Origin: an uncultured Pseudomonadota bacterium
GTDB lineage: Bacteria > Pseudomonadota > Gammaproteobacteria > Steroidobacterales > Steroidobacteraceae
NCBI GenBank assembly: GCA_902826575.1
Contig: CADEFJ010000008.1
Span: forward strand, 1 to 53,910
Direction of reading: 5' to 3'
Length of the DNA: 53,910 bases
Shown: one piece after another, positions 12,410-52,780 of the stretch
How positions within the stretch are numbered: the stretch's first letter is position 1
How the letters are laid out: each line of letters begins with the position of its first letter
Made by a program: the position numbers and the translations under genes
The notes under the pieces: generated by a model
Seen by the model: the letters and a program-made list of their open reading frames with translations, nothing else
Databases searched by the model: none
What the model was told of the DNA's origin: nothing

Positions 12410-12425
12410 TGTGACGCGCTTCACA
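12410..12425. promoter_or_regulatory. CRP/Clp/Vfr-type binding site between flgA and flgB
   Basis: TGTGACGCGCTTCACA matches TGTGA-N6-TCACA at all ten consensus bases. Its centre is about 88 nt upstream of the start predicted from the flgB sigma54 promoter and about 100 nt from the flgA start, so it could act on either operon. The class of regulator is inferred from the motif only. Confidence 0.72.
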
Positions 12426-12479
12426 GCGTGCCGGCCGCGCCGGGGGCCCGGTGGCCGCAAGCCGTTGATCGATACAGGG

Positions 12480-12495
12480 TGGCACAGTGCTTGCT
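12480..12495 (+). promoter_or_regulatory. Sigma54 promoter of the flgB operon
   Basis: TGGCACAGTGCTTGCT fits TGGCACr-N4-TTGCw with the exact GG-to-GC spacing. Transcription would begin near 12505, 30 nt before the flgB ATG. Sigma54 control of the rod/hook operon is known in Pseudomonas and Xanthomonas. Confidence 0.85.
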
Positions 12496-12534
12496 GTGCT
12501 CCTGCGCAGTCAGATTTCTGACGGTGGGACCGAT

Positions 12535-12936
12535 ATGCGATTCAATCTTGACGCTTACCTCGGGGTGCATCAGCAGGCGCTGCAGCTTGGCGCGAAGCGC
12601 ACCGAAGTGATTGCGAACAATCTCGCCAATGCCGACACGCCCGGCTTCAAGGCCCGCGACATCGACTTTCGCGCGGCGCTGGCCGCGGCCGGCAACGGCG
12701 GGTCGCTCGCGATGGCGCAGACGCGCGCGACGCATCTGTCGACGGGTGGTGCAGACGGCGACCTGACGTCGGCGCTGCGTTATCGCACGCCGCTCGCACC
12801 TTCCCTCGACGGCAATACGGTCGATCCCCAGCTCGAGCAGGCAGCCTTCGCGGAGAACGCGGTCCGTTACCAGGCCACGCTCGCCTTCCTGAACGCGCGC
12901 TTTCGCGGCCTGATGACCGCGATCACCGGACAGTGA
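12535..12936 (+). CDS. flgB: Flagellar proximal rod protein FlgB
   Basis: 133 residues from ATG 12535. The rod-protein signature is clear: QQALQLGAKRTEVIANNLANADTPGFKARDIDF at the N-terminus (ANNLANADTPGF is the rod/hook family box) and VRYQATLAFLNARFRGL at the C-terminal helix. FlgB joins the MS-ring/FliE adaptor to the rod and is exported without a signal peptide. First gene of flgBCDEFGHIJKL. Codons upstream to 12487 lie within the promoter and are excluded. Confidence 0.95.
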   Translation: MRFNLDAYLGVHQQALQLGAKRTEVIANNLANADTPGFKARDIDFRAALAAAGNGGSLAMAQTRATHLSTGGADGDLTSALRYRTPLAPSLDGNTVDPQLEQAAFAENAVRYQATLAFLNARFRGLMTAITGQ

Positions 12937-12962
12937 TCGCGGCGCACTGACACAGGAGACGC

Positions 12963-13394
12963 ATGATGTCCTCGTTCAAGACTTTCGATATCGCCGGATC
13001 GGGCATGGCCGCCCAGTCCGTGCGCCTCAATACGGTGGCGAGCAATCTCGCCAACGCCGACAGTGTCAGCGGGGATGCCGCCGCCGTGTACAAGGCCCGC
13101 CATCCGCTGTTCGAGGCGATCAGGCAGCAGCTGGCCGGTGCAAACGCGGGCGCGCAGGGCGGTGCAGCGGTGCGTGTCACCGGCATCGTCGAGAGCGATG
13201 CCGCGCCGGTCGCGCGCTACGAGCCGGGCAATCCGCTGGCGAACGCCGACGGTTACGTCTATGCGCCGAACGTCAACGTGGTCGAGGAAATGGTCGACAT
13301 GATCTCGGCGTCCCGCTCGTACCAGAACAATGTCGAGGTGATGGATACGGCCAAGAGCATGATGCTCGCCACGCTGAGGCTCGGGCAGTCATGA
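12963..13394 (+). CDS. flgC: Flagellar proximal rod protein FlgC
   Basis: 143 residues; CAGGAG lies 7-8 nt before the ATG. N-terminal box NTVASNLANADS and C-terminal VEEMVDMISASRSYQNNVEVM are diagnostic of FlgC. It builds the proximal rod in the periplasm after type III export. The stop overlaps the flgD start (ATGA). Confidence 0.95.
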   Translation: MMSSFKTFDIAGSGMAAQSVRLNTVASNLANADSVSGDAAAVYKARHPLFEAIRQQLAGANAGAQGGAAVRVTGIVESDAAPVARYEPGNPLANADGYVYAPNVNVVEEMVDMISASRSYQNNVEVMDTAKSMMLATLRLGQS

Positions 13395-14074
13395 GCATCG
13401 TGAACAATGATGCCGCCAATCCTTATGCAGGGCTCGGCTTCAATACGTCCGCGCCCGGCATCGCCGCCGCCGGCGACAACTCGCTCGACCAGCAGGACTT
13501 CCTGATGCTGCTCACGACGCAGTTGAAGAACCAGGATCCGCTGAAGCCGCTCGACTCCACGCAGTTCGTGAGCCAGCTCGCGCAGTTCAGCCAGGTTTCC
13601 GGCGTGCAGGAGATGAATACATCGCTGCATGCGCTCGCGAGCAGCCTGAAGAGCTCGGCGGTGCTCGACGGCGCTGCGCTGGTCGGGCGTTTCGTGCTGC
13701 TCGATGGCGATACCGCCACGCTCGCCGCGGACGGCTCGATCGTCGGCGGCGTGACGACACCGGCCGGTGCGACATCCATCACGGTCAACGTCCGCAATGC
13801 CAGCGGCGAACTCGTGCACTCGATGCAGATGGCGCCGACCGAGGGCACCACGCTCTTCAGCTGGGACGGCGTGCAGCAGGACGGCACGCTCGCCGCGCCC
13901 GGCAGCTACCGCTTCAATGCGCTCGCCTCCAACGGCAGCCGGACCGAGGCGGCGACAACGATGGTCGCGGACCTGGTCGCGAGTGTCAGCATCGATCCGG
14001 CGACCTACGCATTGCAGTTGAACACGGCGTCCGGGGGGCCAGTGACCCTCGCCGAAGTCCGCCAGGTGTTCTGA
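13391..14074 (+). CDS. flgD: Flagellar hook-capping scaffold FlgD
   Basis: 227 residues. The N-terminal motif DQQDFLMLLTTQLKNQDPL is the conserved FlgD export/assembly region, followed by Ig-like and tudor-like C-terminal domains (about 90-220, TLFSWDGVQQDG). FlgD forms the transient cap on which FlgE polymerises. Coupled to flgC by a 4-nt overlap. Confidence 0.95.
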   Translation: MSIVNNDAANPYAGLGFNTSAPGIAAAGDNSLDQQDFLMLLTTQLKNQDPLKPLDSTQFVSQLAQFSQVSGVQEMNTSLHALASSLKSSAVLDGAALVGRFVLLDGDTATLAADGSIVGGVTTPAGATSITVNVRNASGELVHSMQMAPTEGTTLFSWDGVQQDGTLAAPGSYRFNALASNGSRTEAATTMVADLVASVSIDPATYALQLNTASGGPVTLAEVRQVF

Positions 14075-14107
14075 AGTCCGAATCCGAATCCCAGGAGTAC
14101 ACGCAAC

Positions 14108-15319
14108 ATGCCATTCACCATTGCCCTCAGCGGGCTGAACGCGGCCTCGGCCGATCTCGCCGTCACCGCGAACAACATCGCGAACGGCTCGACCAGCGGC
14201 TTCAAGAGCTCGCGCACGGAGTTCGCGGACCTGTTCGCCGTATCACCCTTCGGCGTGGCGAGTACCGCCACCGGCAACGGCGTGAAGGTCTCCTCGGTGA
14301 CCCAGCAGTTCACGCAGGGCAATATCGACTTCACCGACAACAATCTCGACCTCGCCCTCTCGGGCGACGGCTTCTCCACGCTGAGCGACGGTGGTGCGCT
14401 CGCGTACACGCGCTCCGGCGCGTTCAAGGTCGACAACCAGGGCTACGTCGTGAGTCCGACAGGTTCGCGGATGCAGGTCTACCCGCCACTCGCGAACGGC
14501 GGCTTCAACACCGGCGGCCTCTCCGACCTGCAACTTGCGACCAACGAAAGCGCCCCGCAGGCGACCTCGACGATCCGGATGACGCTCAACTTGCCGGCCG
14601 ATGCCACCACGCCGCTGGCGGCATTCGATCCGGCGGATGCGACGAGCTACAACCGCCAGACATCCATGACCGTCTATGACTCGCTGGGGGCGGCACACAC
14701 CAACAGCTTCTACTTCGTCAAGGGCGCCACAGCCAATGAATGGACCGTGCAGGCCTACACCGATGGCGCTCCGGTCGGCACGCCGCAACCGCTCACGTTC
14801 GACAGCAATGGTGCGCTCGTCGCACCGGCCGGTGGCTCGATCGCCTTTCCTCCGCACCTGCCGGCCACCGGAGCACAAGCGCTCGAGATCACGCTCGACG
14901 TGCGCGGGGCGACGCAGTACGGCAGCAACTTCGGCGTGCAGTACATCCAGGACGGATACACCACTGGTGCGCTCAGTGGCATCGATGTCGATGCAACCGG
15001 AGTGGTCAGCGCACGCTACACCAACGGCCGCTCGATTCCGCTCGGCCAGGTGGCCGTGACGAACTTCGCGAATGTCCAGGGCCTGCAGAAGCTCGGCGAC
15101 ACACAGTGGGGCGAGACCTTTGGTTCCGGTGCCGCGCAACGCGGCACGGCCGGCAGCTCGGGTTTTGGCGTGATCCAGTCGGGTGCCCTCGAGGCCTCCA
15201 ACGTCGAGCTGACCGAACAGCTCGTGAACATGATCATTGCGCAGCGCAATTTCCAGGCGAACGCGCAGATGATCTCCACCGCGGACCAGATCACGCAGAC
15301 CGTGATCAACATCCGCTGA
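14108..15319 (+). CDS. flgE: Flagellar hook protein FlgE
   Basis: 403 residues; CAGGAG 10 nt before the ATG. Begins MPFTIALSGLNAASADLAVT with the ANNIANGSTSGFK box and ends SNVELTEQLVNMIIAQRNFQ with the usual C-terminal helix, both conserved in rod/hook/HAP proteins. The central domains form the outer surface of the universal-joint hook. The size is typical for a ~400-residue FlgE. Confidence 0.96.
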   Translation: MPFTIALSGLNAASADLAVTANNIANGSTSGFKSSRTEFADLFAVSPFGVASTATGNGVKVSSVTQQFTQGNIDFTDNNLDLALSGDGFSTLSDGGALAYTRSGAFKVDNQGYVVSPTGSRMQVYPPLANGGFNTGGLSDLQLATNESAPQATSTIRMTLNLPADATTPLAAFDPADATSYNRQTSMTVYDSLGAAHTNSFYFVKGATANEWTVQAYTDGAPVGTPQPLTFDSNGALVAPAGGSIAFPPHLPATGAQALEITLDVRGATQYGSNFGVQYIQDGYTTGALSGIDVDATGVVSARYTNGRSIPLGQVAVTNFANVQGLQKLGDTQWGETFGSGAAQRGTAGSSGFGVIQSGALEASNVELTEQLVNMIIAQRNFQANAQMISTADQITQTVINIR

Positions 15320-15337
15320 ATGCCCGTGTAGCCGCAT

Positions 15338-16078: not shown

Positions 16079-16110
16079 GGCGACGAACCAAGTTTCACTG
16101 AGGACAGCAC

Positions 16111-17567: not shown

Positions 17568-17569
17568 AC

Positions 17570-19599: not shown

Positions 19600-19605
19600 T
19601 CGACC

Positions 19606-21494: not shown

Positions 21495-22688
21495 ATGCGC
21501 ATGTCCACGCTCGGCTCGCACTACAGCCTGCTCAATCAGATGCTGCGCCAGCAGTCCGACATGGCCAAGGCGCAGATGCAGATCTCGACCCAGCGCCGCG
21601 TACTGACGCCCGCGGACGATCCGATCGCCGCCGGCCGCATCCTGTCCCTCGAGAACCAGATTTCCGCCTATGCGCAATACGAGCGCAACACCAACGCGGT
21701 GCAGACCCGACTGTCGATCGAGGAACAGGCGCTGGCCGACGCCGGGACGGTGCTGCGACGGGTACGCGACCTGACGCTGCAGGCGAACAGTGGGGCGCTC
21801 GACGACGTGTCGCGCGGCGCAATCGCGACCGAGATCGATGAGCGCATCCGCGAGCTTCAGGCCATCGGCAATCGACGCGACGCCGCGGGCGAGTTCCTGT
21901 TCGCGGGCCACAGTACCGGAACGCAGCCGTTCGTGCGCACGGCCGCCGGCATCGCCTATGCCGGCGACCAGGGTGTGCGCGAAGTACAGGTGAGCCCGAC
22001 ACAAGCGGTCGGCACCGGCCACAATGGCTTCGATGTCTTCATGGACATTGCAGCCGGCAATGGCACGTTCACGGTGGCCACCGGGGCGCTCAATGTCGGC
22101 GGCGGCTGGATTGCACCGCTCTCGGTCGTCGCCCCTGCTGCCTGGACGGGCGGCAGCTACACGCTGCGCTTCATCGATGCCGGCAGCTACGAGATTCTCG
22201 ACGCCTCGAGTGCCCAGGTCGCCACCGGCAACCATGCTTCGGGCGATGCGATCGACTTCAACGGCGTGCGCTTCTCGATCAACGGTGCGCCCGCAGCGGG
22301 CGACACCTTCACGATCGCCGATGCCGGTCGCCAGGACCTGTTCACGTCGCTCGACGCGCTGGCCGCGACCCTGCGCCTGCCTGCCGGCACGGAGCAGCAG
22401 CGTGCGCACTTCAATACCGGCATCACGACATCGCTAGGCGCGATCGACGCCGGGCTCGACCATCTGCTCAACATCCGCGCGCAAGTCGGCGCGCGACTCA
22501 ATGTCATCGACAATGTCACCGCGGCACGCGATGGGCTCGAGCTCGAACTGCAGTCGGCGGTATCGACGTTGCGCGACATCGATCCCGTCGAGGCGATCAG
22601 TCGCCTGGTGATGCAGCAAAGTGCGTTGACTGCGGCCCAGAAGTCTTTTGCGCAGTTCTCGCAACTTTCGCTGTTCGACTATCTGTGA
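21495..22688 (+). CDS. flgL: Hook-filament junction protein FlgL (HAP3)
   Basis: 397 residues; AGGAGATAGCG precedes the ATG, overlapping the end of flgK. N-terminal MRMSTLGSHYSLLNQMLRQQ and flagellin-like D0/D1 segment RRVLTPADDPIAAGRILSLE; C-terminal DIDPVEAISRLVMQQSALTA. It is the second junction protein. Its stop codon lies inside a CRP-type palindrome that precedes fliC. Confidence 0.94.
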   Translation: MRMSTLGSHYSLLNQMLRQQSDMAKAQMQISTQRRVLTPADDPIAAGRILSLENQISAYAQYERNTNAVQTRLSIEEQALADAGTVLRRVRDLTLQANSGALDDVSRGAIATEIDERIRELQAIGNRRDAAGEFLFAGHSTGTQPFVRTAAGIAYAGDQGVREVQVSPTQAVGTGHNGFDVFMDIAAGNGTFTVATGALNVGGGWIAPLSVVAPAAWTGGSYTLRFIDAGSYEILDASSAQVATGNHASGDAIDFNGVRFSINGAPAAGDTFTIADAGRQDLFTSLDALAATLRLPAGTEQQRAHFNTGITTSLGAIDAGLDHLLNIRAQVGARLNVIDNVTAARDGLELELQSAVSTLRDIDPVEAISRLVMQQSALTAAQKSFAQFSQLSLFDYL

Positions 22689-22699
22689 CGGGCATCACG
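22684..22699. promoter_or_regulatory. CRP/Clp/Vfr-type site upstream of fliC
   Basis: TGTGACGGGCATCACG matches TGTGA-N6-TCACA at nine of ten bases and overlaps the flgL stop codon. Its centre is about 60 nt upstream of the start predicted from the sigma28 boxes, the distance at which CRP activates class I promoters. Confidence 0.62.
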
Positions 22700-22718: not shown

Positions 22719-22745
22719 TCAAGCTTTCCCCGCCGGCTCCGATAC
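22719..22745 (+). promoter_or_regulatory. Sigma28 (FliA) promoter of fliC
   Basis: TCAA-N15-TCCGATAC has exact sigma28 spacing; three of four -35 bases and six of eight -10 bases match TAAA-N15-GCCGATAA. The leader to the fliC ATG is about 60 nt and includes a small AGGC-GATT-GCCT hairpin. Confidence 0.76.
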
Positions 22746-27020: not shown

Positions 27021-27036
27021 GTTGAACCGTGTCACA
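27021..27036. promoter_or_regulatory. Weak CRP-type site upstream of the fleQ-like gene
   Basis: GTTGAACCGTGTCACA matches TGTGA-N6-TCACA at eight of ten bases, with a full right half. It lies 57 nt before the start codon. In P. aeruginosa the CRP homologue Vfr represses fleQ through a site in its promoter, which makes this copy worth noting. Confidence 0.42.
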
Positions 27037-27092: not shown

Positions 27093-28244
27093 ATGTCTGT
27101 CTGTACGGATGACATTCACAGGGATGTGGATTTTGGCAGTGACGCCAGGGCGGGAAGCAACGAACCAAGAATGCCGAGCGGCCGATCGCCGGCCGTGCAG
27201 GCCGTCGTACGGCTGATTCGCAGCGTTGCGGGGCATGACTCCAGCGTGCTGGTGCTCGGTGAGTCCGGTACCGGCAAGGAAGTGGTGGCGCGCGCCATCC
27301 ACGAGGCGAGTCCCCGCCGCCACCGGCCGTTCGTCGCGATCAACTGCGGAGCCATACCGGCGGATCTGCTCGAGAGCGAGCTGTTCGGCCACGAGAAGGG
27401 CGCCTTCACCGGTGCGATCGCCACGCGCAAAGGCCGTTTCGAGATCGCCGAGGGCGGCACCCTGTTCCTCGACGAAATCGGCGACATGAGCCTGCCCATG
27501 CAGGTAAAGCTGCTGCGCGTGCTGCAGGAGCGCGTATACGAGCGCGTTGGCAATCACCAGCCGATGCGCTGCAATGTGCGAATCATCGCCGCCACGCATC
27601 GCGACCTCGAGGCGTCGATCGAGAAGGGCGCCTTCCGCCAGGACCTCTTTTACCGCCTCAATGTCTTTCCTATCGAGATGCCCGCGCTGCGCGAGCGCAG
27701 CGCCGACCTGCCGGCGCTGGTCGAGGACTTCATCGCCGTCAATGTACGCGACGGCCGCGGGCGCGTGGCCTTCACGCCGAACGCAATGCGCGCACTGTCG
27801 GGCTATGCCTGGCCGGGCAATATCCGCGAACTGGCCAATCTGGTCGAGCGCCTCTCGATCCTGCACGGTGGACGCCGCGTCGACGTGCAGGATCTGCCGG
27901 CACGCTACCGCGCCAACATCCCCGATGCCGTCGTACCTGCCGCAGACGAGGAGGCGCCGATCACCGAGGTCGAAGCATTGCAGGTGCTCGAAGGCAGCTA
28001 CGAGCCCGACTCGCTGACCCGGCTGCCAGCAGAGGGCATCGACCTGCGCGGCCATCTCGATGCGATAGAGCGCGCGCTCGTGCAGCAGGCGCTGGATCGC
28101 TCGAGCGGCACGGTGGCGCATGCCGCCCGGTTGCTCGGCCTGCGTCGCACGACGCTCGTCGAGAAGCTGCGCAAGCTCGGCGAACCGGCGCTTGAAACTG
28201 CCGGAGTTTTGACGGACCAGGGCGCCTGCCGCGCTACCATGTGA
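27093..28244 (+). CDS. fleQ: FleQ-like sigma54-dependent activator lacking the N-terminal receiver domain
   Basis: 383 residues against ~470-490 for FleQ/FlrA. The AAA+ domain starts almost at once: Walker A GESGTGKE (56-63), sigma54-contact loop GAFTGA (103-108), Walker B TLFLDEIGDM (123-132), arginine-finger region FRQDLFYRLNVFP. A Fis-type helix-turn-helix ends it (GTVAHAARLLGLRRTTLVEK). [18 protein letters not shown] strongly resembles FleQ. The first ~30 residues are unstructured and the LFRS linker motif implicated in c-di-GMP binding in P. aeruginosa FleQ is absent. Predicted master activator of flagellar sigma54 promoters. Confidence 0.85.
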   Translation: MSVCTDDIHRDVDFGSDARAGSNEPRMPSGRSPAVQAVVRLIRSVAGHDSSVLVLGESGTGKEVVARAIHEASPRRHRPFVAINCGAIPADLLESELFGHEKGAFTGAIATRKGRFEIAEGGTLFLDEIGDMSLPMQVKLLRVLQERVYERVGNHQPMRCNVRIIAATHRDLEASIEKGAFRQDLFYRLNVFPIEMPALRERSADLPALVEDFIAVNVRDGRGRVAFTPNAMRALSGYAWPGNIRELANLVERLSILHGGRRVDVQDLPARYRANIPDAVVPAADEEAPITEVEALQVLEGSYEPDSLTRLPAEGIDLRGHLDAIERALVQQALDRSSGTVAHAARLLGLRRTTLVEKLRKLGEPALETAGVLTDQGACRATM

Positions 28245-28255
28245 TGTGCCTCACG
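28240..28255. promoter_or_regulatory. CRP/Clp/Vfr-type site upstream of the fleR-like gene
   Basis: TGTGATGTGCCTCACG matches TGTGA-N6-TCACA at nine of ten bases. It overlaps the fleQ-like stop codon and is centred about 54 nt before the predicted sigma54 start of the fleR-like gene. It abuts a hairpin, GGTTCCG-GCG-CGGAACC (28255-28271), that may terminate fleQ-like transcripts. Confidence 0.6.
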
Positions 28256-28275: not shown

Positions 28276-28291
28276 CGGCACGGAAATTGCT
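28276..28291 (+). promoter_or_regulatory. Sigma54 promoter of the fleR-like gene
   Basis: CGGCACGGAAATTGCT fits GGCACG-N4-TTGCT exactly, with correct GG-to-GC spacing. Transcription would begin near 28301, leaving a 34-nt leader with GGAG 8 nt before the ATG. This implies the first activator switches on the second. Confidence 0.85.
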
Positions 28292-28334
28292 CCATACCAG
28301 TGATGCCCGGCATTTTGCCGGCGGAGTGAACTGG

Positions 28335-29318
28335 ATGGACCGAGACACGAGCAGCACGTCGACCGACCCGGTCGCATGCGCCACCGCGTCCCGCGAGACG
28401 CTCGCGCTCGCCAGCCGTGTCGCTGCGAGCGACTGCACGGTGCTGATCGCCGGCGAGTCCGGCACCGGCAAGGAAGTGCTTGCGCGCTACATCCATCGAT
28501 CATCGCCGCGCGCGTGCTGCGCCTTCGTCGCGATCAATTGTGCCGCGATCCCCGAGAACATGCTCGAGGCCGTCTTGTTCGGCTACGAGAAAGGCGCCTT
28601 CACCGGTGCCCACGCCGCGCACGCCGGCAAATTCGAGCAGGCGCAGGGCGGTACCCTGCTGCTCGATGAGGTTTCCGAGATGCCGCTCGGCCTGCAGGCG
28701 AAGTTGTTGCGCGTGCTTCAGGAGCGCGAAGTCGAACGTATCGGTGGCCGCGGGCCTGTCGCGCTCGACGTGCGGGTGCTCGCGACCACCAACCGCCGCC
28801 TGAGGAGCGAAGTGACGGCCGCCAGGTTCCGCGAGGACCTGTACTACCGCCTGAATGTGTTCCCGATGGTGATCGCGCCACTGCGCGAGCGCCGCGACGA
28901 TGTATTGCCGCTGGCCATGCACCTGCTGTCGTTGCGCTGCGCGCCCGGCAAGCGCATTCCGGCACTGTCCGCTGACGCAGCGCAGCTGCTGCTCACGCAT
29001 GCCTGGCCTGGCAACGTGCGCGAACTCGACAACGTCATGCAGCGCGCGCTGATCCTGCTCGACGGTGAGGTGATCCTGCCGGAGCACGTGCGCTTCGAGA
29101 TGGACGAGGGCACCCCGGCCGCCGCACCGGCCGTGAGCCGGGGCCAGCTGTCGAGCGCCATGGCAACGGCCGAACGCGATCTGATCCTCGAGGCGCTGCG
29201 CGATGGCCAGGGCAGCCGGCGCGCCGCCGCCGAACGGCTCGGCATCAGTCCGCGCTCGCTGCGCTACAAGCTCGCCCAGCTGCGCGCCTCGGGCGTCGAT
29301 CTTGCGGCCTGTGGCTGA
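28335..29318 (+). CDS. fleR: FleR/FlrC-like sigma54-dependent activator without receiver domain
   Basis: 327 residues from ATG 28335 (GGAG 8 nt upstream). After ~30 leader residues the AAA+ domain carries Walker A GESGTGKE (40-47), GAFTGA (87-92) and Walker B LLLDE (108-112), followed by a Fis-type HTH ([20 protein letters not shown]). FleR/FlrC normally have an N-terminal phospho-receiver controlled by FleS/FlrB; here both receiver and kinase gene are absent. The HTH resembles FleR, which drives class III genes. The fleR name is by position and similarity. Confidence 0.8.
29291..29306 (+). promoter_or_regulatory. Possible sigma54 promoter for fliE, inside the end of the fleR-like gene
   Basis: GGGCGTCGATCTTGCG keeps GGC, TTGC and the exact 12-nt GG-to-GC spacing but not the ACG triplet. 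Transcription would start near 29316, 23 nt before the fliE ATG. FleQ/sigma54 control of fliE is known in Pseudomonas; the weak -24 element limits confidence. Confidence 0.4.
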
Positions 29319-34810: not shown

Positions 34811-35758
34811 ATGATGGCGAACCCACCGGCGTTGCCGCCAGCTCCCACTGCAGCGACCGGCGCCACGACGTCGACCGCGCTCGCCGCATCCGCGCCGACC
34901 GATGCGGCGCTCGCAGGCGTGTTCAGTGACGAGCTCGCACAGCTGCTGGATGAGGAATCAGGGAGCCACGACGAGGAGCTGTCGACGCCGGCGGCCCTGG
35001 CATTGCTGCTGTCCGCGCTGATCGATGCGCCGACCGCGACAGCGGGTAGCGCCTCGCCCGTCGGTGTGCGGCCGGGACACGCGCCGCAGCACGTTGCGCA
35101 GCCCATGCCCGCCGCACTCGATTCCGAAGCGTCACTGGATGGCATGTTGCAGGAGCTGCGCGCACCGCCCGCCGCGGCGGGCGGTGTCTCCGACGGGCCG
35201 ATCATGCTGCCCGGCCTCACCGGTTCGATGAGCGCCCAGGCCGCCGCGACGCCTGCCCTGGACGGCCTGGCGAGCCTCGTTGCGGGCAGTGGCCAGGCTA
35301 CCGACGCGCGTGCCGTGGCACAGCACTCCGCACTGCGGCAAGACCTGCCGCTGCAGACACCGGTCGGAACGCAGGCATGGGGCGATGAACTGGCGACACG
35401 GATTGCGCTGCTCGCATCGGACGGTCGGCAATTGGCCTCGGTGCGGCTCACGCCCGAGCATCTCGGGCCGCTCGACATCCGCATCGCGGTGCGCGGTGAC
35501 GAGGCGTCGGTATCGTTCAGTGCGAGCCACCCCGACACACGCGCCGCTCTGGAACAGGCGCTGCCGAGGCTGCGCGAGCTGTTCGCATCGCAGGGCCTGC
35601 AACTCACCCATGCCGATGTGTCGGGGCGTGATCCGCACGACGCACAGTTCCCTGCGGCCCACCACGCGCTGCGTGGACTGACGCGCGATGTCGCGCAGGA
35701 GGGCGAGGGCGCAACTGCGGTGCGAATGCACCTCGGTTTGCTTGACCTTTACGCCTGA
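34811..35758 (+). CDS. fliK: Flagellar hook-length control protein FliK
   Basis: 315 residues from ATG 34811 with GAGG 10 nt upstream (ATG 34814 is equally possible). The N-terminal two-thirds is Ala/Pro-rich and poorly structured; the C-terminal Flg_hook domain is clear (RLTPEHLGPLDIRIAVRGDE, then ASHPDTRAALEQALPRLREL). FliK measures the hook and switches FlhB to filament substrates. It is shorter than many FliK proteins. The flagellar operon is interrupted directly after it. Confidence 0.93.
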   Translation: MMANPPALPPAPTAATGATTSTALAASAPTDAALAGVFSDELAQLLDEESGSHDEELSTPAALALLLSALIDAPTATAGSASPVGVRPGHAPQHVAQPMPAALDSEASLDGMLQELRAPPAAAGGVSDGPIMLPGLTGSMSAQAAATPALDGLASLVAGSGQATDARAVAQHSALRQDLPLQTPVGTQAWGDELATRIALLASDGRQLASVRLTPEHLGPLDIRIAVRGDEASVSFSASHPDTRAALEQALPRLRELFASQGLQLTHADVSGRDPHDAQFPAAHHALRGLTRDVAQEGEGATAVRMHLGLLDLYA

Positions 35759-35783
35759 GGACGAGTGGCGCTGCAGCACAGCC

Positions 35784-35800
35784 TACAACCAGTGGTTGTA
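35784..35800. promoter_or_regulatory. Perfect 17-bp palindrome upstream of the TonB receptor gene
   Basis: TACAACCAGTGGTTGTA: 8-bp arms around a single G, starting 26 nt after the fliK stop. Related half-sites (GGTTGTT at 35814-35820 and CAAACAAC at 35836-35843) follow in the same AT-richer leader, and a GACTC-GAT-GAGTC repeat lies at 35869-35881. The whole gap 35759-35912 has no gene. Best read as an operator region for a dimeric regulator encoded elsewhere. Confidence 0.58.
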
Positions 35801-35912
35801 TGAATCATTGAAAGGTTGTTGGACTGCATCCCAGTGCAAACAACAGTATGCGAGCGTGACCAGTTGGCGACTCGATGAGTCAGTGTCAAGGTCGATCATA
35901 GGGGGAGTCAAC

Positions 35913-38480
35913 GTGCCTACGAAGCAGATCGTTTGCGCCATGGGTTTGAGTGGATTGCTGGGCTTCGGCTTCAGCGCTGGCGCTGTCGCGCAAGAGTCGC
36001 AGGACGCGCCGGCCCAGGCCAAGGCAGCCGAAGCACTCGACGAAGTCATCGTCACGGCGCGCAAGCGCGAAGAGGCATTGCAGGACATTCCCCTCTCGAT
36101 CTCCGTGTTCGCCGCGGATGACATCCAGGAGGCCGACCTGCGTTCCCTGCAGGATGTCGCCACGATGACGCCCGGCTTCCAGTTCATGAACATGGGGCTC
36201 AGGAGCCCCGGGCGATACGAGACCCAGCTGCAGTTCCGCGGCCTGACTACCGCGCAGCTTTCACCGAGTTTCGCGACCGGCGCCCTGTTCATCGATGGCC
36301 AGTACGTGCTGAGCGGCGGCACATCCCTGTCACTGATGGATATCGAGCGCATCGAGGTGATCAAGGGCCCGCAGGCGGCCTATTTCGGGCGCAATACCTT
36401 CGGCGGCGCAGTCAACATGATCACGCGCGATCCGAACATGCAGGAGTTCAGTGGAGAACTGAATGTCCGCACGACCGATCGCTCCAACAACGATTTCAGC
36501 GGCCTCGTCGAGTTTCCGCTGGTCCGGGACGTGCTGTCGGCGAGCCTGAGCGCGCGCCTGTACGACAAGCGCGGCCAGTGGACCGCCACCGATGGCGGAC
36601 GCATGGGTGACGAGGAATCCAGGACCGCGAATGCCGTCATCAAGTGGAATGTCACGGACGCGCTGGAATTCAAGCTGCGCTATGCCTACTCCGAGGATGA
36701 CGACGGAGCCGCGGCGCAGGGCTACATCTCCGGCATCAAGAACGATACCTGCACCGGACTTACGATCGATACGCCGCAAGGGCCGGCGTCGCCGAGGCGC
36801 TACATCTGCGGCACCGTGCCTTACGGCAGCAGCGTGATCACGGATGCGGGCTCGAAGTCGATTTCCTCCAACACGCACCTGCCGCCGTACCCGCCGCTCG
36901 ACGCCCTGACGCAACCGCCCGCCGCGTTCCCCGATGTGCCGCATCGCGACGACATCGGCTTGTCGCGCGAGACCGAGCGACTGACGTTCATCGGCAGTTA
37001 CGCTTTCCAGGGCGGCTACTCCCTCGATTTCTCCTACGGCAAGAACGAGCAGAACGCCAACTTCCTGCGCGACTACGACATCACGGATCGCATCACCTTC
37101 TTCTCCAGCGATCCGCAGACCATGGAAGACGAGAGCGCCGAGATTCGCCTGGGCGGCCCGCAGGACTCACGCTTCCGCTGGCTCGTCGGGTACAACACCT
37201 ACGAGCAGAAGTTCACGACGTCGGGCGAGGGCGGCACGGTGACGACCTCGTGCTTCGGTGCGGTGCAGACGCCATTTCAGGATAACTATCCCGGCAACTG
37301 CGTCGGCGGCGCGCCAGGCGTTTTCAATCTCGTCCTGCCGCTCGGCCTTGCGAATGCGGACAAGGCCAAGGTGGAAGGCATATTCGCGGCACTCGATTTC
37401 GACATCACCGACCGCGTCACGCTGAGCGTGGAAGGACGCTACCAGGAAGACACCCTGACCAAGGGCGCGGGCGTGGCAACGCCTGGTGGCACCGTTCTCA
37501 AGGAGACCTTCAGTGATTTCCTGCGGCGCGTCATCCTGCGCTGGATGCCGGCGGATGAGACCAATGTCTGGGCGAGCTATTCCGAAGGCATGATTGCCGG
37601 CGACTTCAACAGCACCTTCATCAACGCGGACGAGCGCGAACGCGCGCAATACGTGGCGCTGAACCCGGCCATCTCGGAGGCGCTCGATGCCGAGACCCTG
37701 GAGGCCTGGGAGATCGGCGCGAAGCAGGGCTTCATGGGTGGGCGTGGCCAGGTCAGTGCATCCGTGTACTACTATGAATGGGCCAATATCAAGGGCCGCT
37801 CCTCGTATCCGATCAACGAAACCTGCCGTCCGGCCGACATGGGCGCGGTGGGCTGCGATCCCGCGCTGGGACAGGCCGTCGGCGATCCGAAGCGCTTCCT
37901 GGACGGGAGCGGCGAACTGGCTCCGCTGTTCACGATTCGCAACGTGCTGCTGCCCGGCGATGCGACGCTCTGGGGCGCCGAACTCGAGCTGGCCTACCGG
38001 TTCACGGATTCGCTCCTGTGGCAGCTCAACGGTGCCTACACGGCGTCCGAATACGACGACTACGAATTCAATTTCGTGACGCCCGTCGCCGGCTACTCGC
38101 AGATGGCGGGTAACCAGACGCCGCGGCAGCCCAAGTGGACCGGCAACAGCTCGCTGATCTGGGACCTCAACGCGTTCGGCAAGCCGGCCTATGTGCGCGG
38201 CGATGTGCTCTACCAGGGCGAAGCGTTTGCCGACGAGTCCAACCTCGCGAAGATCGATGATTACTGGCTGCTCAACCTGCGGGCCGGCATCGAGCTGGGC
38301 GCGGTCACCGTGGAGCTGTTCTCCACCAACCTGACCGACGAGAAGGCGTGGCAGACCGGCGCGCGCTGGACCGACTGGAGCAGCCCGACGCAGTTCCCGC
38401 ACCTCACCGAGAAGCAGGGTGTGGTCGCGGCACCGCTCGATCGACGTGAGTTTGGGCTGCGCGTCAACTTTCGCTTCTGA
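35913..38480 (+). CDS. TonB-dependent outer-membrane receptor
   Basis: 855 residues from GTG 35913, decided by GGGGGAG 5 nt upstream and a signal peptide that begins there (core MGLSGLLGFGF, cleavage near AVAQ at 27). A TonB-box-like DEVIVTARKRE (43-53) is followed by the plug domain (~55-170, IERIEVIKGPQAAYFGRNTF) and a 22-strand-type barrel ending in Phe (REFGLRVNFRF). This subfamily is expanded in Sphingomonadales, Caulobacter and Steroidobacter-like bacteria and often serves carbohydrates, aromatics or steroids; substrate unknown. It splits fliK from fliL and is followed by an SDR gene 40 nt away. Confidence 0.9.
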   Translation: MPTKQIVCAMGLSGLLGFGFSAGAVAQESQDAPAQAKAAEALDEVIVTARKREEALQDIPLSISVFAADDIQEADLRSLQDVATMTPGFQFMNMGLRSPGRYETQLQFRGLTTAQLSPSFATGALFIDGQYVLSGGTSLSLMDIERIEVIKGPQAAYFGRNTFGGAVNMITRDPNMQEFSGELNVRTTDRSNNDFSGLVEFPLVRDVLSASLSARLYDKRGQWTATDGGRMGDEESRTANAVIKWNVTDALEFKLRYAYSEDDDGAAAQGYISGIKNDTCTGLTIDTPQGPASPRRYICGTVPYGSSVITDAGSKSISSNTHLPPYPPLDALTQPPAAFPDVPHRDDIGLSRETERLTFIGSYAFQGGYSLDFSYGKNEQNANFLRDYDITDRITFFSSDPQTMEDESAEIRLGGPQDSRFRWLVGYNTYEQKFTTSGEGGTVTTSCFGAVQTPFQDNYPGNCVGGAPGVFNLVLPLGLANADKAKVEGIFAALDFDITDRVTLSVEGRYQEDTLTKGAGVATPGGTVLKETFSDFLRRVILRWMPADETNVWASYSEGMIAGDFNSTFINADERERAQYVALNPAISEALDAETLEAWEIGAKQGFMGGRGQVSASVYYYEWANIKGRSSYPINETCRPADMGAVGCDPALGQAVGDPKRFLDGSGELAPLFTIRNVLLPGDATLWGAELELAYRFTDSLLWQLNGAYTASEYDDYEFNFVTPVAGYSQMAGNQTPRQPKWTGNSSLIWDLNAFGKPAYVRGDVLYQGEAFADESNLAKIDDYWLLNLRAGIELGAVTVELFSTNLTDEKAWQTGARWTDWSSPTQFPHLTEKQGVVAAPLDRREFGLRVNFRF

Positions 38481-38520
38481 CACGCTCACCCGCCCTCCTT
38501 GTCGTGAGGGGAGTTCATCC

Positions 38521-39396
38521 GTGAAGCGACGGGACATCCTGCGCGGCTTGGCATTTGCGGCCGCGGGCGCTTCCGGCAGCGTGACTCGTGCTCAGGTCGT
38601 GCCGGCAGCGCCCACAACGGCGTCGCGGTGGCCGTTGAAGTCGATGCGGGTCGATGGCGCGACAGTGCTGGTGACCGGCTCGAACCAGGGAATCGGGCTC
38701 GGCTTCGTCAAGGCCTTGCTGGCCCGCGGTGCAAAGCGGGTCTACGCAACGGCGCGCCGTGAGGAAAGCCTTCCGGATGTCGTGGCATTGGACCCGGGAC
38801 GTGTCCGGGCGCTGGTTCTGGACGTCAATGAACCCGAGCAACGGCAAAGGGCGGCCGCACAGGCCACCGATGTGACGTGGCTGATCAACAATGCCGGCGT
38901 CCCGGGCAGTCGTACACGCTCCGAGGACCGGATTCTCGCTGCCGCAAGTCTCGACGACGGGCACTGGGTCATGCAGACCAACTGCTGGTCTCCCGCGGAA
39001 CTTTGCCGCCTGTTCGCGCCGATCATCGTGAAGAACGGCGGCGGCGCCATCACGAACATCCTGTCTGTCGGGGCCTGGTATTGCGTGCCGCAGAACACGA
39101 CTTACAGCATGTCGAAGGCGGCTGCCGCCATGATGACGGCGGGAGTGCGGGCCGAACTCGATCGCGAACCGGTGCTCGTGTCGGGTGTCTACACGGCGGG
39201 AGTGGCCACGAACATGTCCGGTGGACAGGGCATGGATCCCGTCGCGCACGCGCACCTTGTCCTGGATGCAGCCGGGCGCGGCGAGACCGACATCCTCGCC
39301 GGTACCGGCGTCGAGCGGCTTCGCGATGCCGTACGGGCCGACCCCAAGGCGGTGGAGCGCGAGCGGATCGAGCGGATGCACGCGGCGGACAAGTAA
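38521..39396 (+). CDS. Short-chain dehydrogenase/reductase with Tat-type signal sequence
   Basis: 291 residues from GTG 38521 (GGGGAG 7 nt upstream). The N-terminus KRRDILRG, then AFAAAGASGSVTRAQ, looks like a twin-arginine signal. The SDR domain starts near residue 45: cofactor motif TGSNQGIG (52-59), NNAG (123-126), catalytic Ser182 and YSMSK (Tyr195, Lys199). ATARRE after the second strand suggests NADP(H). If the signal is real the enzyme is exported folded with its cofactor, which is unusual for an SDR. Probably co-transcribed with the TonB receptor and acting on its substrate; substrate unknown. Confidence 0.85.
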   Translation: MKRRDILRGLAFAAAGASGSVTRAQVVPAAPTTASRWPLKSMRVDGATVLVTGSNQGIGLGFVKALLARGAKRVYATARREESLPDVVALDPGRVRALVLDVNEPEQRQRAAAQATDVTWLINNAGVPGSRTRSEDRILAAASLDDGHWVMQTNCWSPAELCRLFAPIIVKNGGGAITNILSVGAWYCVPQNTTYSMSKAAAAMMTAGVRAELDREPVLVSGVYTAGVATNMSGGQGMDPVAHAHLVLDAAGRGETDILAGTGVERLRDAVRADPKAVERERIERMHAADK

Positions 39397-39444
39397 CGCC
39401 GCCGCCGCGACTGCGAGCGCCAATCTTCCGTCGCAGCCGCCCGG

Positions 39445-39460
39445 TGTGCGCTCGGTCACA
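39445..39460. promoter_or_regulatory. CRP/Clp/Vfr-type site upstream of fliL
   Basis: TGTGCGCTCGGTCACA matches TGTGA-N6-TCACA at nine of ten bases, and one flanking base on each side extends the symmetry (GTGTG/CACAC). It lies about 92 nt upstream of the start predicted from the fliL sigma54 promoter. The gap 39397-39571 holds no gene. Confidence 0.6.
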
Positions 39461-39518: not shown

Positions 39519-39534
39519 TGGCATCGAGCTTGCA
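39519..39534 (+). promoter_or_regulatory. Sigma54 promoter of the fliL operon
   Basis: TGGCATCGAGCTTGCA fits TGGCAy-N5-TTGCw with exact spacing. Transcription would start near 39544, 28 nt before the fliL ATG. It gives fliLMNOPQR-flhB its own start after the inserted TonB receptor/SDR pair. Confidence 0.8.
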
Positions 39535-44679: not shown

Positions 44680-44704
44680 ACCCACCCGACGCAACAGGCA
44701 CCAC

Positions 44705-46786: not shown

Positions 46787-46811
46787 ATGAAGTGATGGAA
46801 AGAGATCGAAC

Positions 46812-49607: not shown

Positions 49608-49615
49608 CCGGGGCG

Positions 49616-50011
49616 ATGCGCAACAACCTGAAATTCCTGATCGTCGATGACTACTCCACGATGCGTCGCATCGTGAAGAACCTGTTGCACGATCTCGGCT
49701 ATCCCAACGTCGCGGAGGCCGACGACGGCAAGACGGCTCTGCCGATGCTGCAGGCGGGCGGCTTCGATTTCGTGGTGACCGACTGGAACATGCCTGGCAT
49801 GCCCGGGCTCGAGCTGCTGAAGGCCATCAGGGCCGACAGCAAGCTGAAGGAGATGCCGGTGCTGATGGTGACCGCCGAAGCGAAGCGCGAGCAGATCGTC
49901 GAGGCAGCCCAGGCGGGCGTCAGTGGCTATGTCATCAAACCCTTCACGGCGGAGACGCTCAAGCAGAAGCTCGACAAGATCCTCGCGCCGCGCGCGGTCG
50001 TGGCGGGCTAG
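49616..50011 (+). CDS. cheY: Chemotaxis response regulator CheY
   Basis: 131 residues from ATG 49616. Single receiver domain: acidic pair VDD near 11-12, phospho-acceptor Asp in [12 protein letters not shown], switch Thr in [10 protein letters not shown] and Lys in [11 protein letters not shown]. Phosphorylated CheY binds FliM to switch rotation. Follows fliA and precedes cheZ by 3 nt. Confidence 0.97.
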
Positions 50012-50014
50012 CCC

Positions 50015-50548
50015 ATGCTTGCGACGACACGCGGCGCCGATCGCCATGCTGAACTGGTGGCGCGGCTGTGCGGGGCGCTGGCGCGCTTCCAGCACGACGC
50101 GAGCGTTGCAGGCTGCCCGGCGAACGGGATGCCCGATGCACGACAACGCCTCGCGCACGTCGTGCGTCTCACCGACGATGCGGCGCATCGAACGCTCGAC
50201 CTCGTGGAACGCTCGGGTCCGCTCGCCGAGCGCATCGGTGAGGGCGCGCGAACCATTGCGGCAGCGGCGGCGGGCGGCGCCCGCGGCGACGTGGCGTTGG
50301 CCACCTACCTGGGCGCCACGGCCGCGGATGCCGAGACGCTGAGGCGCAATCTGTCCGAAGTGCTGCTGGCGCAGTGCTACCAGGACATCACCGGGCAGAT
50401 CATCCGCGGCGTCATCAACCTGGTCACCGAAATCGAAGCGGCGCTGGCGGAGCTCGCGCAGGGTTCGGCGTTGGCACGCGCGGACGATGGCCGCGCAGTC
50501 AATGGCCAGCAGGACGTCGACGCCCTGCTGTCGGATCTGGGACTCTAA
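50015..50548 (+). CDS. cheZ: CheY-P phosphatase CheZ
   Basis: 177 residues, somewhat shorter than E. coli CheZ (214). The long-helix catalytic segment LAQCYQDITGQIIRGVINLV carries the conserved Gln of QDxTGQ. The C-terminal DVDALLSDLGL is the CheY-tethering peptide after a flexible linker. Its presence is typical of beta/gammaproteobacteria. Confidence 0.92.
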   Translation: MLATTRGADRHAELVARLCGALARFQHDASVAGCPANGMPDARQRLAHVVRLTDDAAHRTLDLVERSGPLAERIGEGARTIAAAAAGGARGDVALATYLGATAADAETLRRNLSEVLLAQCYQDITGQIIRGVINLVTEIEAALAELAQGSALARADDGRAVNGQQDVDALLSDLGL

Positions 50549-50569
50549 CGGCGGAGCAGCAGGCAGAAG

Positions 50570-51313
50570 ATGGACGTACTTTCCCTGACCGGATTCCTGC
50601 TCGCGGCCATCGCGGTGGTCGTCGGCTCCATGCTCAAGGGCGCCGGCGTCGCGGCGCTTGCCTCGTCTGCCGCCTTCATGATCGTGGTGGTCGGCACGGT
50701 CGCCGCGATATTCGTGCAGACCTCCATGCCGGTGCTGAAGCACGCGTTGCGGATCACCGGCTGGGTGTTTCGTCCGCCGCGACTCGAGGCGGGCGCGATG
50801 ATCGGCAAGATCGTCGAGTGGAGCAACATTGCGCGCAAGCAGGGACTGCTCGGGCTCGAACCGCTGATCGAGAAGGAGAGCGATCCGTTCCTGAAGAAGG
50901 GCCTGCAGCTGGTCGTCGATGGCAGCGAGCCGGATTCCCTGCGTGGCACGATGGAGGTGGAACTGTCCTCGCGCGAGCATGCCGATACGGCGGGCGCGAA
51001 AGTGTTCGAAGGCATGGGCATCTATGCGCCGACGCTCGGCATCATCGGTGCCGTGCTGGGCCTGATGGCGGTGATGCAGAACCTGGCCGATCCGAGCAAG
51101 CTCGGCAAGGGAATCGCCGCGGCGTTCACCGCCACCATTTACGGCATCGGCCTTGCGAACCTGGTGTTCCTGCCGATGGCGGCCAAGCTGAAGAGCGTGA
51201 TCAGCGCGCAGTCACAGGTGCGCGAGATGATCATCGAGGGCCTGATCGGCATCGCGCAGGGCGACAATCCGCGCGCAATCGAGGCCCGGCTGCAGAGCTT
51301 CATGCACGGCTGA
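50570..51313 (+). CDS. motC: Flagellar stator protein MotC (MotA family)
   Basis: 247 residues with four membrane segments. The conserved MotA features are a Pro in GIYAPTLGIIGAVLGLMAVM and charged cytoplasmic loop residues (HALRITGWVFRPPR, AGAMIGKIVEWSNIARKQG). The MotC name follows Pseudomonas, where a motC-motD pair lies in the same fliA-che region. With MotD it forms a proton-driven stator. Confidence 0.92.
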   Translation: MDVLSLTGFLLAAIAVVVGSMLKGAGVAALASSAAFMIVVVGTVAAIFVQTSMPVLKHALRITGWVFRPPRLEAGAMIGKIVEWSNIARKQGLLGLEPLIEKESDPFLKKGLQLVVDGSEPDSLRGTMEVELSSREHADTAGAKVFEGMGIYAPTLGIIGAVLGLMAVMQNLADPSKLGKGIAAAFTATIYGIGLANLVFLPMAAKLKSVISAQSQVREMIIEGLIGIAQGDNPRAIEARLQSFMHG

Positions 51314-51326
51314 CCGGGCGCAATCC

Positions 51327-52226
51327 ATGTCACGCAGGCGTCGCAAGCACGAAGATCACACCAATCACGAGGCATGGGCCATTCCCTATGGCGACCTGAT
51401 GACGCTGCTGCTCGCGTTCTTCGTCGTCATGTACGCCATCTCGTCGCTGAACGAGGGCAAGTACCGCATTCTGTCGGATTCGCTGGTGGCGGCCTTCAGG
51501 GGCACGCCGCGCACACTCGAGCCTGTCCAGGTGGGCGAGAAGCAGGTCGGCTCCGGCGCGGACCTGAAGGTGTCGCTCGTCGAGCAGGGTACGCTCGAGG
51601 GCCAGCCACGCCAGCTGCTCGAGGCGGTGCCGATCGAGAACGCCCACCCGCTACGCAACGGGCCGCGCCGCGCCGGCGGTGCCGGCCAGCCGCTACCCGG
51701 CACGACGGCCGCCGACGAGGCGATGCTGCGCAAGGTCGCCGACGAGGTCGAGCAGGCGATGCAGGACCTGGTCGAGCGCAAGCAGGTGCTGGTGCGTCGC
51801 TACGTGGACCGCGTCGAGGTCGAGATTCGCACCGACATCCTGTTCCAGAGCGCCTCGGCGGACCTGTCGCCTCATGCGCAGGCCATCATCGGGCGCCTTG
51901 CGGTCGCGCTCGCCCGGTTTGCGAACCCCGTGCGCGTCGAAGGCCACACCGACAACGTGCCGATCCACACGCGCGCCTATCCGTCGAACTGGGAGCTGTC
52001 CGCCGCGCGCGCCGCCACCGTGGTGCACATCATGAGCGAGCGGGGCATCGAGCCAGCACGCCTTGCGGTGCTCGGCTACGGCGAGTTCCGGCCGGCAAAG
52101 CCGAACGATTCCGCCGAGGGTCGCAACATGAATCGTCGCGTGCTGCTGGTGGTGACCGGCGTGGGCGAAGCGCCGGAGGTTGCGGTGGCGCCGGCGGCAA
52201 TCGTTGCCCAACCCGTCAGTCCCTGA
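51327..52226 (+). CDS. motD: Flagellar stator protein MotD (MotB family)
   Basis: 299 residues. The basic N-terminus MSRRRRKHED precedes one membrane helix with the proton-carrying Asp (IPYGDLMTLLLAFFVVMYAI). After a linker, an OmpA/MotB peptidoglycan-binding domain (~165-285) shows VEGHTDNVPIHTRAYPSNWE and LGYGEFRPAKPNDS. Anchors the stator to the wall. Starts 13 nt after motC. Confidence 0.94.
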   Translation: MSRRRRKHEDHTNHEAWAIPYGDLMTLLLAFFVVMYAISSLNEGKYRILSDSLVAAFRGTPRTLEPVQVGEKQVGSGADLKVSLVEQGTLEGQPRQLLEAVPIENAHPLRNGPRRAGGAGQPLPGTTAADEAMLRKVADEVEQAMQDLVERKQVLVRRYVDRVEVEIRTDILFQSASADLSPHAQAIIGRLAVALARFANPVRVEGHTDNVPIHTRAYPSNWELSAARAATVVHIMSERGIEPARLAVLGYGEFRPAKPNDSAEGRNMNRRVLLVVTGVGEAPEVAVAPAAIVAQPVSP

Positions 52227-52245
52227 CGGACCGGTTCCGACCCGA

Positions 52246-52261
52246 TGGCATGCTTCCTGCT
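52246..52261 (+). promoter_or_regulatory. Candidate sigma54 promoter for the DUF2802-cheA unit
   Basis: TGGCATGCTTCCTGCT fits TGGCAyG-N4-yTGCT with exact GG-to-GC spacing. Start predicted near 52273, 60 nt before the DUF2802 ATG. The gap 52227-52332 has no gene. Confidence 0.6.
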
Positions 52262-52332
52262 GTGTCTTCCGGTGCACTCGCAGGCGTCGGGGAACTGACG
52301 CCCGCCTGGGGTGCGCCACGGGAGCTGAGGGG

Positions 52333-52764
52333 ATGAGCGAATTCGATCTGTTGTTCTGGGCAATGGTCGCGGCCATCGTTGCGCTCGGCGTCGCGGTGGC
52401 GTCGCTCGCGATCGGCCAGGCCAGGTTACGCGAGGCCTCGCGACGCGATGCGCAGCGCCTGTTCGAACAGATGGACCTGACCCTCGGTGAGCTGCGGGAC
52501 GTGTCCACGGCGCTTTCCGGCTGCCTGCAGGGGGTCCAGGAGTTGCGCGTGCGCGGCACATCGGCCCAGCGTGCGGCCGCCAGCGCACCGGCACCGGCGC
52601 CGTCGCGCAGCTATGACATAGCGCTGCGCCTCGCGCGCAATGGTGCGAGCCGCGAGGAACTGATGTCGAGCTGCGGCATGAGCCGGCACGAGGCGGAGCT
52701 CGCGGTACGGCTGCACGGGCCGGAGCAACGCGGCCGGCCGCTGCGTGCGGGGGCCGCCGCATAG
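52333..52764 (+). CDS. DUF2802-type membrane-anchored small protein
   Basis: 143 residues; GAGGGG just before the ATG. One N-terminal membrane helix (LLFWAMVAAIVALGVAVASL), a coiled coil (ARLREASRRDAQRLFEQMDL), a Pro/Ala linker, and a C-terminal HTH-like motif (YDIALRLARNGASREELMSS, CGMSRHEAELAVRLHG) that defines DUF2802. Such genes accompany chemotaxis/flagellar clusters in Pseudomonas and relatives, usually near cheW; function unknown. Confidence 0.78.
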   Translation: MSEFDLLFWAMVAAIVALGVAVASLAIGQARLREASRRDAQRLFEQMDLTLGELRDVSTALSGCLQGVQELRVRGTSAQRAAASAPAPAPSRSYDIALRLARNGASREELMSSCGMSRHEAELAVRLHGPEQRGRPLRAGAAA

Positions 52765-52780
52765 TGTGACGCAGTTCACT
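52765..52780. promoter_or_regulatory. CRP/Clp/Vfr-type site upstream of cheA
   Basis: TGTGACGCAGTTCACT matches TGTGA-N6-TCACA at nine of ten bases. It begins directly after the DUF2802 stop and is centred 41 nt before the cheA ATG. Confidence 0.58.

Follow-up and report, generated by a model that had tools for sequence, protein, structure and literature searches.

Does cyclic AMP (cAMP) reach the flagellar cascade only through its top regulator, or also directly through promoters further down? A flagellar gene cluster from an uncultured member of the Steroidobacteraceae raises this question, as the CRP-type palindrome TGTGA-N6-TCACA recurs in it upstream of several genes. The cluster lies on the whole stretch of DNA that we analyzed, hereinafter the window, namely 53,910 nucleotides of contig CADEFJ010000008.1 from assembly GCA_902826575.1. 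We consider it quite likely that four of the palindromes, those upstream of flgB, fliC, fliL and the second of two genes for sigma54 activators (FleR/FlbD-like), are sites of a cAMP-type orthologue of CRP and Vfr. The conservation of these predicted sites, their fixed spacing from promoters and the presence of a CRP/Vfr orthologue together give good support to direct CRP-family input at several tiers, and the cAMP level of the cell would probably tune flagellum building at several steps, not only at the top.

Conservation of the palindromes across the genus and family

Genes were named by NCBIfam matches: flgA and flgB diverge around the first palindrome, fliC follows the second, and the cluster further encodes two sigma54 activators, fliE, a TonB receptor, a dehydrogenase, fliL, fliA, cheY, cheZ and motor genes. 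FlgL was named from its pattern of matches and its position, and cheA from the N-terminal sequence at 52814. The comparison set comprised six genomes of the window's genus (the congeners) and many more from the Steroidobacteraceae; mismatches were counted over the ten half-site bases.

With at most one mismatch, the palindrome occurs in 38 of 71 family regions upstream of flgB, fliC, the second activator gene and fliL, where the best of 319 control half-sites (other half-sites having two G or C) scores 3, and it is absent from all 87 regions upstream of flgC, flgL, fliS, fliE and motD. A larger sample was restricted to regions with a recognizable promoter (sigma54 score of at least 17 or sigma28 score of at least 12) and enough upstream DNA, which retained 100 of 102 fliL, 42 of 48 second-activator, 27 of 35 fliC and 15 of 15 flgB regions; two of the 104 family genomes with a FliL match (G036 and G161) had been omitted, their match being cut or split. 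At the same threshold of one mismatch, the palindrome was recovered here at 52/100 fliL, 27/42 second-activator, 11/27 fliC and 4/15 flgB regions, the best other half-site reaching 9, 5, 2 and 1, respectively. By genus, 13 of 22 include members with the fliL palindrome. In the genus of the window, the palindrome is present at fliL in six of seven members (in all seven with two mismatches allowed), at the second activator gene in five of five and at fliC in six of six, with flgB giving two of five, or five of five if two mismatches are allowed. Hence, the conservation in relatives that the original prediction had named as a test is borne out for these four sites.

Beyond the family the arrangement looks rare. 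Other families of the same order have the palindrome at one of 10 fliL regions, and among named loci it appears in one of 46 flgB regions, that one being from the window's genus (20 control half-sites: maximum 6, mean 0.3), and in five of 19 fliC regions, four from the window's genus and the fifth from Sedimenticola. Whether the sites disappear along with flagella was examined genome-wide: with at most one mismatch, the six congeners hold 180 matches against 55 controls, and five family genomes without FlgL, FliL and MotD hold 145 against 108. Three of these five show an excess and two none, a mixed outcome.

Occurrence in the window and in the genome

The six palindromes that the original prediction listed in the window, with their mismatch counts, proved exact (Table 1). 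Its view that they are unlikely to be due to chance holds for the five with at most one mismatch: 0.86 such matches are expected, only one of 100 dinucleotide shuffles attains five, and 29 other letter arrangements of the half-site yield a mean of 0.31 and a maximum of 2. With two mismatches allowed there is no such excess (12 found, 14.5 expected), and the sixth, at 27021, is therefore uninformative taken alone. The genome (3.11 Mb in 225 contigs, 89% complete), of which the window makes up 1.7%, contains 32 matches with at most one mismatch as against 13 for a control pattern read backwards, and six perfect matches as against none for the reversed pattern. The window accounts for five of the 32, as against an expectation of 0.55 (binomial P 2e-4, post hoc).

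The division into coding and non-coding DNA, for both window and genome, is that of a rough gene prediction, which leaves 16% of the window non-coding. Four of the five matches lie in this part, and their density within the window is not equal in coding and intergenic DNA. The place of the fifth depends on where cheA begins: 52765 is intergenic if the gene starts at the ATG at 52814 and lies within the frame if it starts at an upstream GTG. Beyond the window, by the same rough prediction, nine of 27 matches are intergenic and 18 are in predicted frames, several at the very start of the frame.

Spacing from the promoters

Downstream of the palindromes at flgB, the second activator gene and fliL we found the sigma54 promoter pattern TGGCAC-N5-TTGCW (TGGCACAGTGCTTGCT, CGGCACGGAAATTGCT and TGGCATCGAGCTTGCA, respectively), and downstream of that at fliC a sigma28 promoter (TCAAGCTT-N11-TCCGATAC). 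At fliL, 42 of the 52 family palindromes end at a distance of 58 or 59 bases from the -24 element downstream, and in all seven members of the window's genus, one of which has two mismatches, the distance is 58. The distance at flgB is 53 or 54 bases in four of four cases and 54 in three of five two-mismatch cases; all five sites of the genus (at most two mismatches) stand at 54. At fliC, 26 bases separate the palindrome from the sigma28 -35 element in nine of 11 cases; the distance is 26 in the five other members of the genus and 19 in the window. Distances at the second activator gene are grouped at 9-10, 18-21, 33, 44-46 and 55 bases (two-mismatch sites included), so that helical phasing is suggestive there and not at fliL. 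The three palindromes associated with sigma54 promoters lie at about -54 to -92 from the inferred start. The six-base spacers differ between species with these distances mostly fixed, and the varying spacer bases imply that the conservation is not simple sequence similarity.

Table 1. Positions of the predicted regulatory elements and activator genes in the window (mm, mismatches)
Feature	Position	Strand	Basis or remark
FlbD-like activator box CGGCAA-N4-TTGCCG, upstream of flgB	12388..12403	.	one mm; symmetrical-word search
CRP palindrome upstream of flgB	12410..12425	.	perfect (0 mm); pattern match and genus comparison
sigma54 promoter of flgB, TGGCACAGTGCTTGCT	12480..12495	+	
CRP palindrome upstream of fliC	22684..22699	.	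1 mm; pattern match and genus comparison
sigma28 promoter of fliC, TCAAGCTT-N11-TCCGATAC	22719..22745	+	19 bases past the palindrome
Weak palindrome before the fleQ-like gene	27021..27036	.	2 mm; not supported as a site
Act1, FleQ-like sigma54 activator	27093..28244	+	
Degenerate FleQ-like box upstream of the second activator gene	28199..28214	.	three mm here, clearer in other genera
CRP palindrome upstream of the FleR/FlbD-like activator gene	28240..28255	.	1 mm; genus and family comparison
sigma54 promoter of the second activator gene, CGGCACGGAAATTGCT	28276..28291	+	
Act2, FleR/FlbD-like sigma54 activator	28335..29318	+	listed frame 28287-29318; start probably at the ATG that follows the promoter
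Degenerate FleQ-like box upstream of fliL	39418..39433	.	family boxes peak 85-86 bases before -24
CRP palindrome upstream of fliL	39445..39460	.	1 mm; pattern match and genus comparison
sigma54 promoter of fliL, TGGCATCGAGCTTGCA	39519..39534	+	
CRP palindrome before cheA, less certain	52765..52780	.	1 mm; Vfr-like spacer; half of 20 relatives have a site elsewhere after motD

The flagellar activators and their own boxes

The names FleQ-like and FleR/FlbD-like rest on the C-terminal helix; the latter also comes from the best NCBIfam match, which is below the cutoff. Both proteins start near the AAA+ domain, and no receiver domain was seen in either. The helix of the first contains RRTTLVEK, which is FleQ-like. 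About 90 bases separate the two genes, and hence there is no FleS-like kinase gene between them; a kinase elsewhere was not searched for. A conserved arginine pair has been described for FleQ (PMC10723142).

Separate boxes seem to exist for these activators. Among symmetrical words in the 15 flgB regions, those of genomes without the CRP palindrome included, GCGGCAA-N4-TTGCCGC is the commonest, and in the window and four relatives this box stands six bases before the CRP site. Its core GGCAA-N4-TTGCC, with up to two mismatches, lies 70-96 bases from the -24 element in 13 of the 15 regions; control half-sites reach at most 9, their 95th percentile being 1. The word resembles the FlbD ftr box, CCGGCA-N4-TGCCGG, a consensus for which our literature search found no paper.

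The box described for FleQ is GTCAAT-N2-ATTGAC (PMC10723142). Of 100 genomes, 48 have a FleQ-like box at fliL that lies 82-88 bases upstream of the -24 element, most often at 85 (20 genomes) or 86 (13), and no distance outside this range exceeds five. By class, the box is present in 31 of 52 genomes with the palindrome, in four of 13 whose palindrome has two mismatches and in 13 of 35 lacking one, so that 21 of the 52 palindrome-bearing genomes show no such box, a caveat on the separation of activator boxes from palindromes. FleQ-like boxes are degenerate in the window and near-perfect in relatives such as G146 and G183, where that at fliL, GTCAATTTATCGAC, fits the FleQ box with one change. 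Six genomes share the sequence CGACGGAAGTTTGACG for the box at the second activator gene; its reverse complement, CGTCAAACTTCCGTCG, is the box that G002 has at fliL. The presence of separate activator boxes, also in species lacking the palindrome, suggests that the palindrome is an added element.

The candidate binding protein

The genome's own CRP gene, although truncated, and orthologues in its relatives, intact in a congener, settle a further point, that a CRP-family protein is present. The nearest chains in the PDB to the congener protein (G004) are the catabolite gene activator (E 1e-76), Vfr (1.5e-73) and, further off, a Clp-type chain (2.2e-60). Its alignment keeps GE..RSA, RSAWVR, THPxGMQIK and SRExxGR (as SREMAGR), of which we take GE, RS and T to belong to the cAMP pocket, THPxGMQIK to be activating region 1 (AR1) and SRExxGR to be the recognition helix. 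Clp, which responds to cyclic di-GMP (c-di-GMP), has lost the RS pair of this pocket, and the congener protein retains RSAWVR; it thus appears to be a cAMP-type CRP/Vfr orthologue, not one of the Clp type. Of 160 family genomes, 148 gave a match to this protein, and 27 of the 30 genomes searched for a class III cyclase domain, this one included, have it. Other proteins of the cyclic-nucleotide-binding (cNMP) type comprise two with FNR-like helices (ETVSR and ESVSR), one with SRKTVNAALK and two without such a domain as judged by eye.

Proposed mechanism and competing explanations

At the three sigma54 promoters the order would be activator box, CRP site and -24/-12 element, the box presumably being FleQ-like at fliL and the second activator gene and FlbD-like at flgB, and CRP at the sigma28 promoter of fliC would occupy a class I-like position, ahead of the -35 element. 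CRP bends DNA, and the congener protein keeps the AR1 patch. Bound with cAMP, CRP would most likely help these promoters by contacting the C-terminal domain of the polymerase alpha subunit, which could recruit the polymerase, and by bending the stretch from activator to promoter, which could fix the angle of the loop; cAMP would then set the gain at several tiers. We hold a positive effect to be somewhat more probable than a negative one. A more specific proposal, which we regard as rather doubtful, is that CRP acts as an architectural co-activator of the flagellar sigma54 cascade in the place of IHF, with the loop closing well only in the presence of cAMP, and also serves the sigma28 flagellin promoter. 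We lowered our estimate of it because IHF-like words exceed shuffles with and without the palindrome: at fliL they average about 0.3 per region in both groups as against 0.03-0.04 in shuffles, although the FleQ-like box itself resembles the IHF core, a caveat on these counts. None was seen in 26 second-activator regions bearing the palindrome. That the palindrome simply replaces an IHF-like word at fliL was rejected, as the words are as common with it (15 of 52 regions) as without it (eight of 35), a result that lends the bending mechanism no support.

Several observations weigh against CRP binding and activation as proposed here. Three of four congeners have two mismatches at flgB, at the outer bases. 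The genome's own CRP gene is incomplete, ending at a contig end after 73 residues that are 97-99% identical to the congeners. Vfr prefers a spacer of the W-C-T-R type; such a spacer is present at 10 of 80 unique flagellar sites (counted per promoter, without a chance control), for instance TGTGACGCAGTTCACA and TGTGAACTGCATCACA in other genera, and within the window at the cheA site and at none of the other four sites with at most one mismatch. Genus g7 has a CRP that is 93-95% identical, yet none of its 12 fliL regions bears a site, which means that an intact CRP is not sufficient for the palindromes. Genus g13 offers a contrast in favor of CRP: seven genomes with a diverged CRP (47-70%) show three to four mismatches at fliL; its member G121 (CRP 93%) has palindromes at the second activator gene and fliC, and G140 (CRP 68%, second activator 64%) has none. 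This contrast comes from one lineage, and is confounded because the second activator was seen in the fetched DNA of only G140 among the seven; our confidence in CRP binding is slightly lowered on that account. In E. coli, moreover, CRP lowers rather than raises sigma54 promoters (PMC3900584).

The last point bears on the possibility that CRP binds as a brake, which with cAMP poises the sigma54 polymerase, blocks the activator and delays flagellum building. This is the other sign of the activation favored here and lies within our confidence in CRP binding; we think it possible, if the less probable of the two. The E. coli promoters dctA, glnAp2 and Pu are inhibited via AR1 and the alpha C-terminal domain (PMC3900584), and Vfr represses fleQ in P. 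aeruginosa (PMC8036289). The AR1 stretch is conserved in the congener CRP. However, a brake on sigma54 needs no site at a sigma28 promoter at a class I-like distance, and Clp, the Xanthomonas homologue, reportedly up-regulates fliC (by the title of Lee et al. 2003).

The palindromes might instead be enhancers of a flagellar sigma54 activator, their likeness to CRP sites being coincidental, which we consider improbable. Three of the four sites are upstream of sigma54 promoters, TGTGA-N6-TCACA also fits the NifA motif TGT-N10-ACA, sites in the window's genus mostly lack the Vfr-like spacer, and some site-less clades have a second activator that is more diverged (57-62%) or not seen. This explanation is weakened by the GGCAA-N4-TTGCC and FleQ-like boxes, which suit the activators better, the latter occurring at fliL also where the palindrome is missing, and by fliC, whose promoter, at a fixed spacing, is of the sigma28 type, for which such activators have no role. 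Chance matches in GC-rich DNA, seemingly conserved through coding constraint at stop codons, would account for the lack of excess at two mismatches and for the overlaps of the left arm TGTGA with the flgL stop codon at 22684 and with the end of the preceding activator's frame at 28240. We give this very little credence: at fliL and flgB the window's sites are clear of predicted genes, and the near-zero controls in the family upstream regions contradict it.

Palindromes at the fleQ-like gene and cheA

The original prediction had placed CRP-type sites at early, middle and late promoters of the cluster; several tiers stand (flgB, fliC, the second activator gene and fliL), whereas the top, represented by the fleQ-like gene, does not, and the cheA site is not positionally conserved. 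A real site at 27021 was rejected, since just one of 16 regions upstream of fleQ-like genes matches with at most one mismatch, and this match (G023) is the site of a divergent fliL gene. Among four congeners none matches at this threshold upstream of the fleQ-like gene, and only the right arm TCACA recurs in place (G005 and G002).

At cheA, a palindrome lies 81-253 bases past the end of the motD match in 10 of 20 relatives, including five of six congeners, and in six of these 10 is directly followed by GGAG, resembling a ribosome-binding site for the small gene that follows. That small gene is followed by cheA in G001, G004, G006 and G027, and the palindrome of the window stands instead after the small gene. 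Possibly a CRP site has changed its place in the cheA region. We rejected a sigma28 promoter immediately downstream of the window's cheA site: the best score there, 11, is reached or exceeded by five of 300 shuffled stretches, and the best match falls after the start codon.

Neighboring genes and palindromes elsewhere

Genes for a TonB-dependent receptor and a short-chain dehydrogenase at 35688-39396 are located within the flagellar cluster, immediately before the fliL promoter, and fliE to fliL spans about 10.2 kb, compared with about 6.5 kb in G005. The two genes thus appear to have been inserted without disturbing the fliL promoter block. Another palindrome, GTCAGATTTCTGAC (12509-12522), identical in three congeners, follows the flgB sigma54 promoter and precedes the likely start codon; it might serve as a FleQ-type box in a downstream position, or form an RNA hairpin close to the ribosome-binding site.

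The neighbors of 13 of the 27 matches outside the window were annotated; they include three GGDEF genes, a GspH-type gene and rpiA, and show no single theme. Other palindromes of this genome (L193, L196, L204, L005 and L207) are near three GGDEF genes, a gene for a GspH-type pseudopilin and an FtsX-type gene, and matches spelled like the FtsX-type one are also found on flagellar contigs of G002 and G005. On L201, a palindrome at 1505 precedes by 41 bases a gene whose product has two cNMP-binding domains and, as judged by eye, a rhodanese-like C-terminus. The congener contig G005:C26 bears two identical perfect palindromes, 14449-14464 and 14604-14619, 155 bases apart.

Relation to known systems and significance

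CRP-family control is known at fleQ (Vfr and Clp) and at fliC (Clp), and the cAMP inputs to flagella that are named in the reviews consulted act at a top regulator (flhDC or fleQ). Clp of Xanthomonas campestris offers a likeness as a CRP homologue acting on the flagellin promoter; its activity is reportedly inhibited by c-di-GMP and it reportedly acts at the fleQ promoter (PMC9600515). In contrast, the cAMP pocket is kept here, the fleQ-like gene lacks a conserved site and sigma54 promoters bear sites. Vfr of P. aeruginosa is of a close protein type and brings cAMP input to a FleQ cascade at its top (PMC8036289), whereas here the input would be below the top. At glnAp2, dctA and Pu of E. coli, CRP is combined with enhancer-dependent promoters via AR1, but the effects there are inhibitory and Pu, as described in that source, has no recognizable CRP site (PMC3900584), unlike the near-consensus sites at fixed spacing found here. 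IHF at Pu is likewise a DNA-bending protein between an activator box and a sigma54 promoter (PMC3900584), and IHF is also named at the P. aeruginosa fleSR promoter (PMC10723142); in the present case a cAMP-dependent protein would take that place.

What would be new is a CRP placed, at fixed spacing and at several tiers, between the box of an activator and a sigma54 promoter. Judged by title, the open-licence papers that our searches returned include no description of CRP sites at several tiers of a sigma54 flagellar cascade, and on flagella and CRP in the Steroidobacteraceae they yielded one paper, a cave metagenome study. If the reading favored here is true, the cluster would provide a natural test case for how CRP works with the sigma54 polymerase. 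It would likewise point to a predicted regulon for motility and surface life in the Steroidobacteraceae, comprising flagella, GGDEF genes and a GspH-type pseudopilin.

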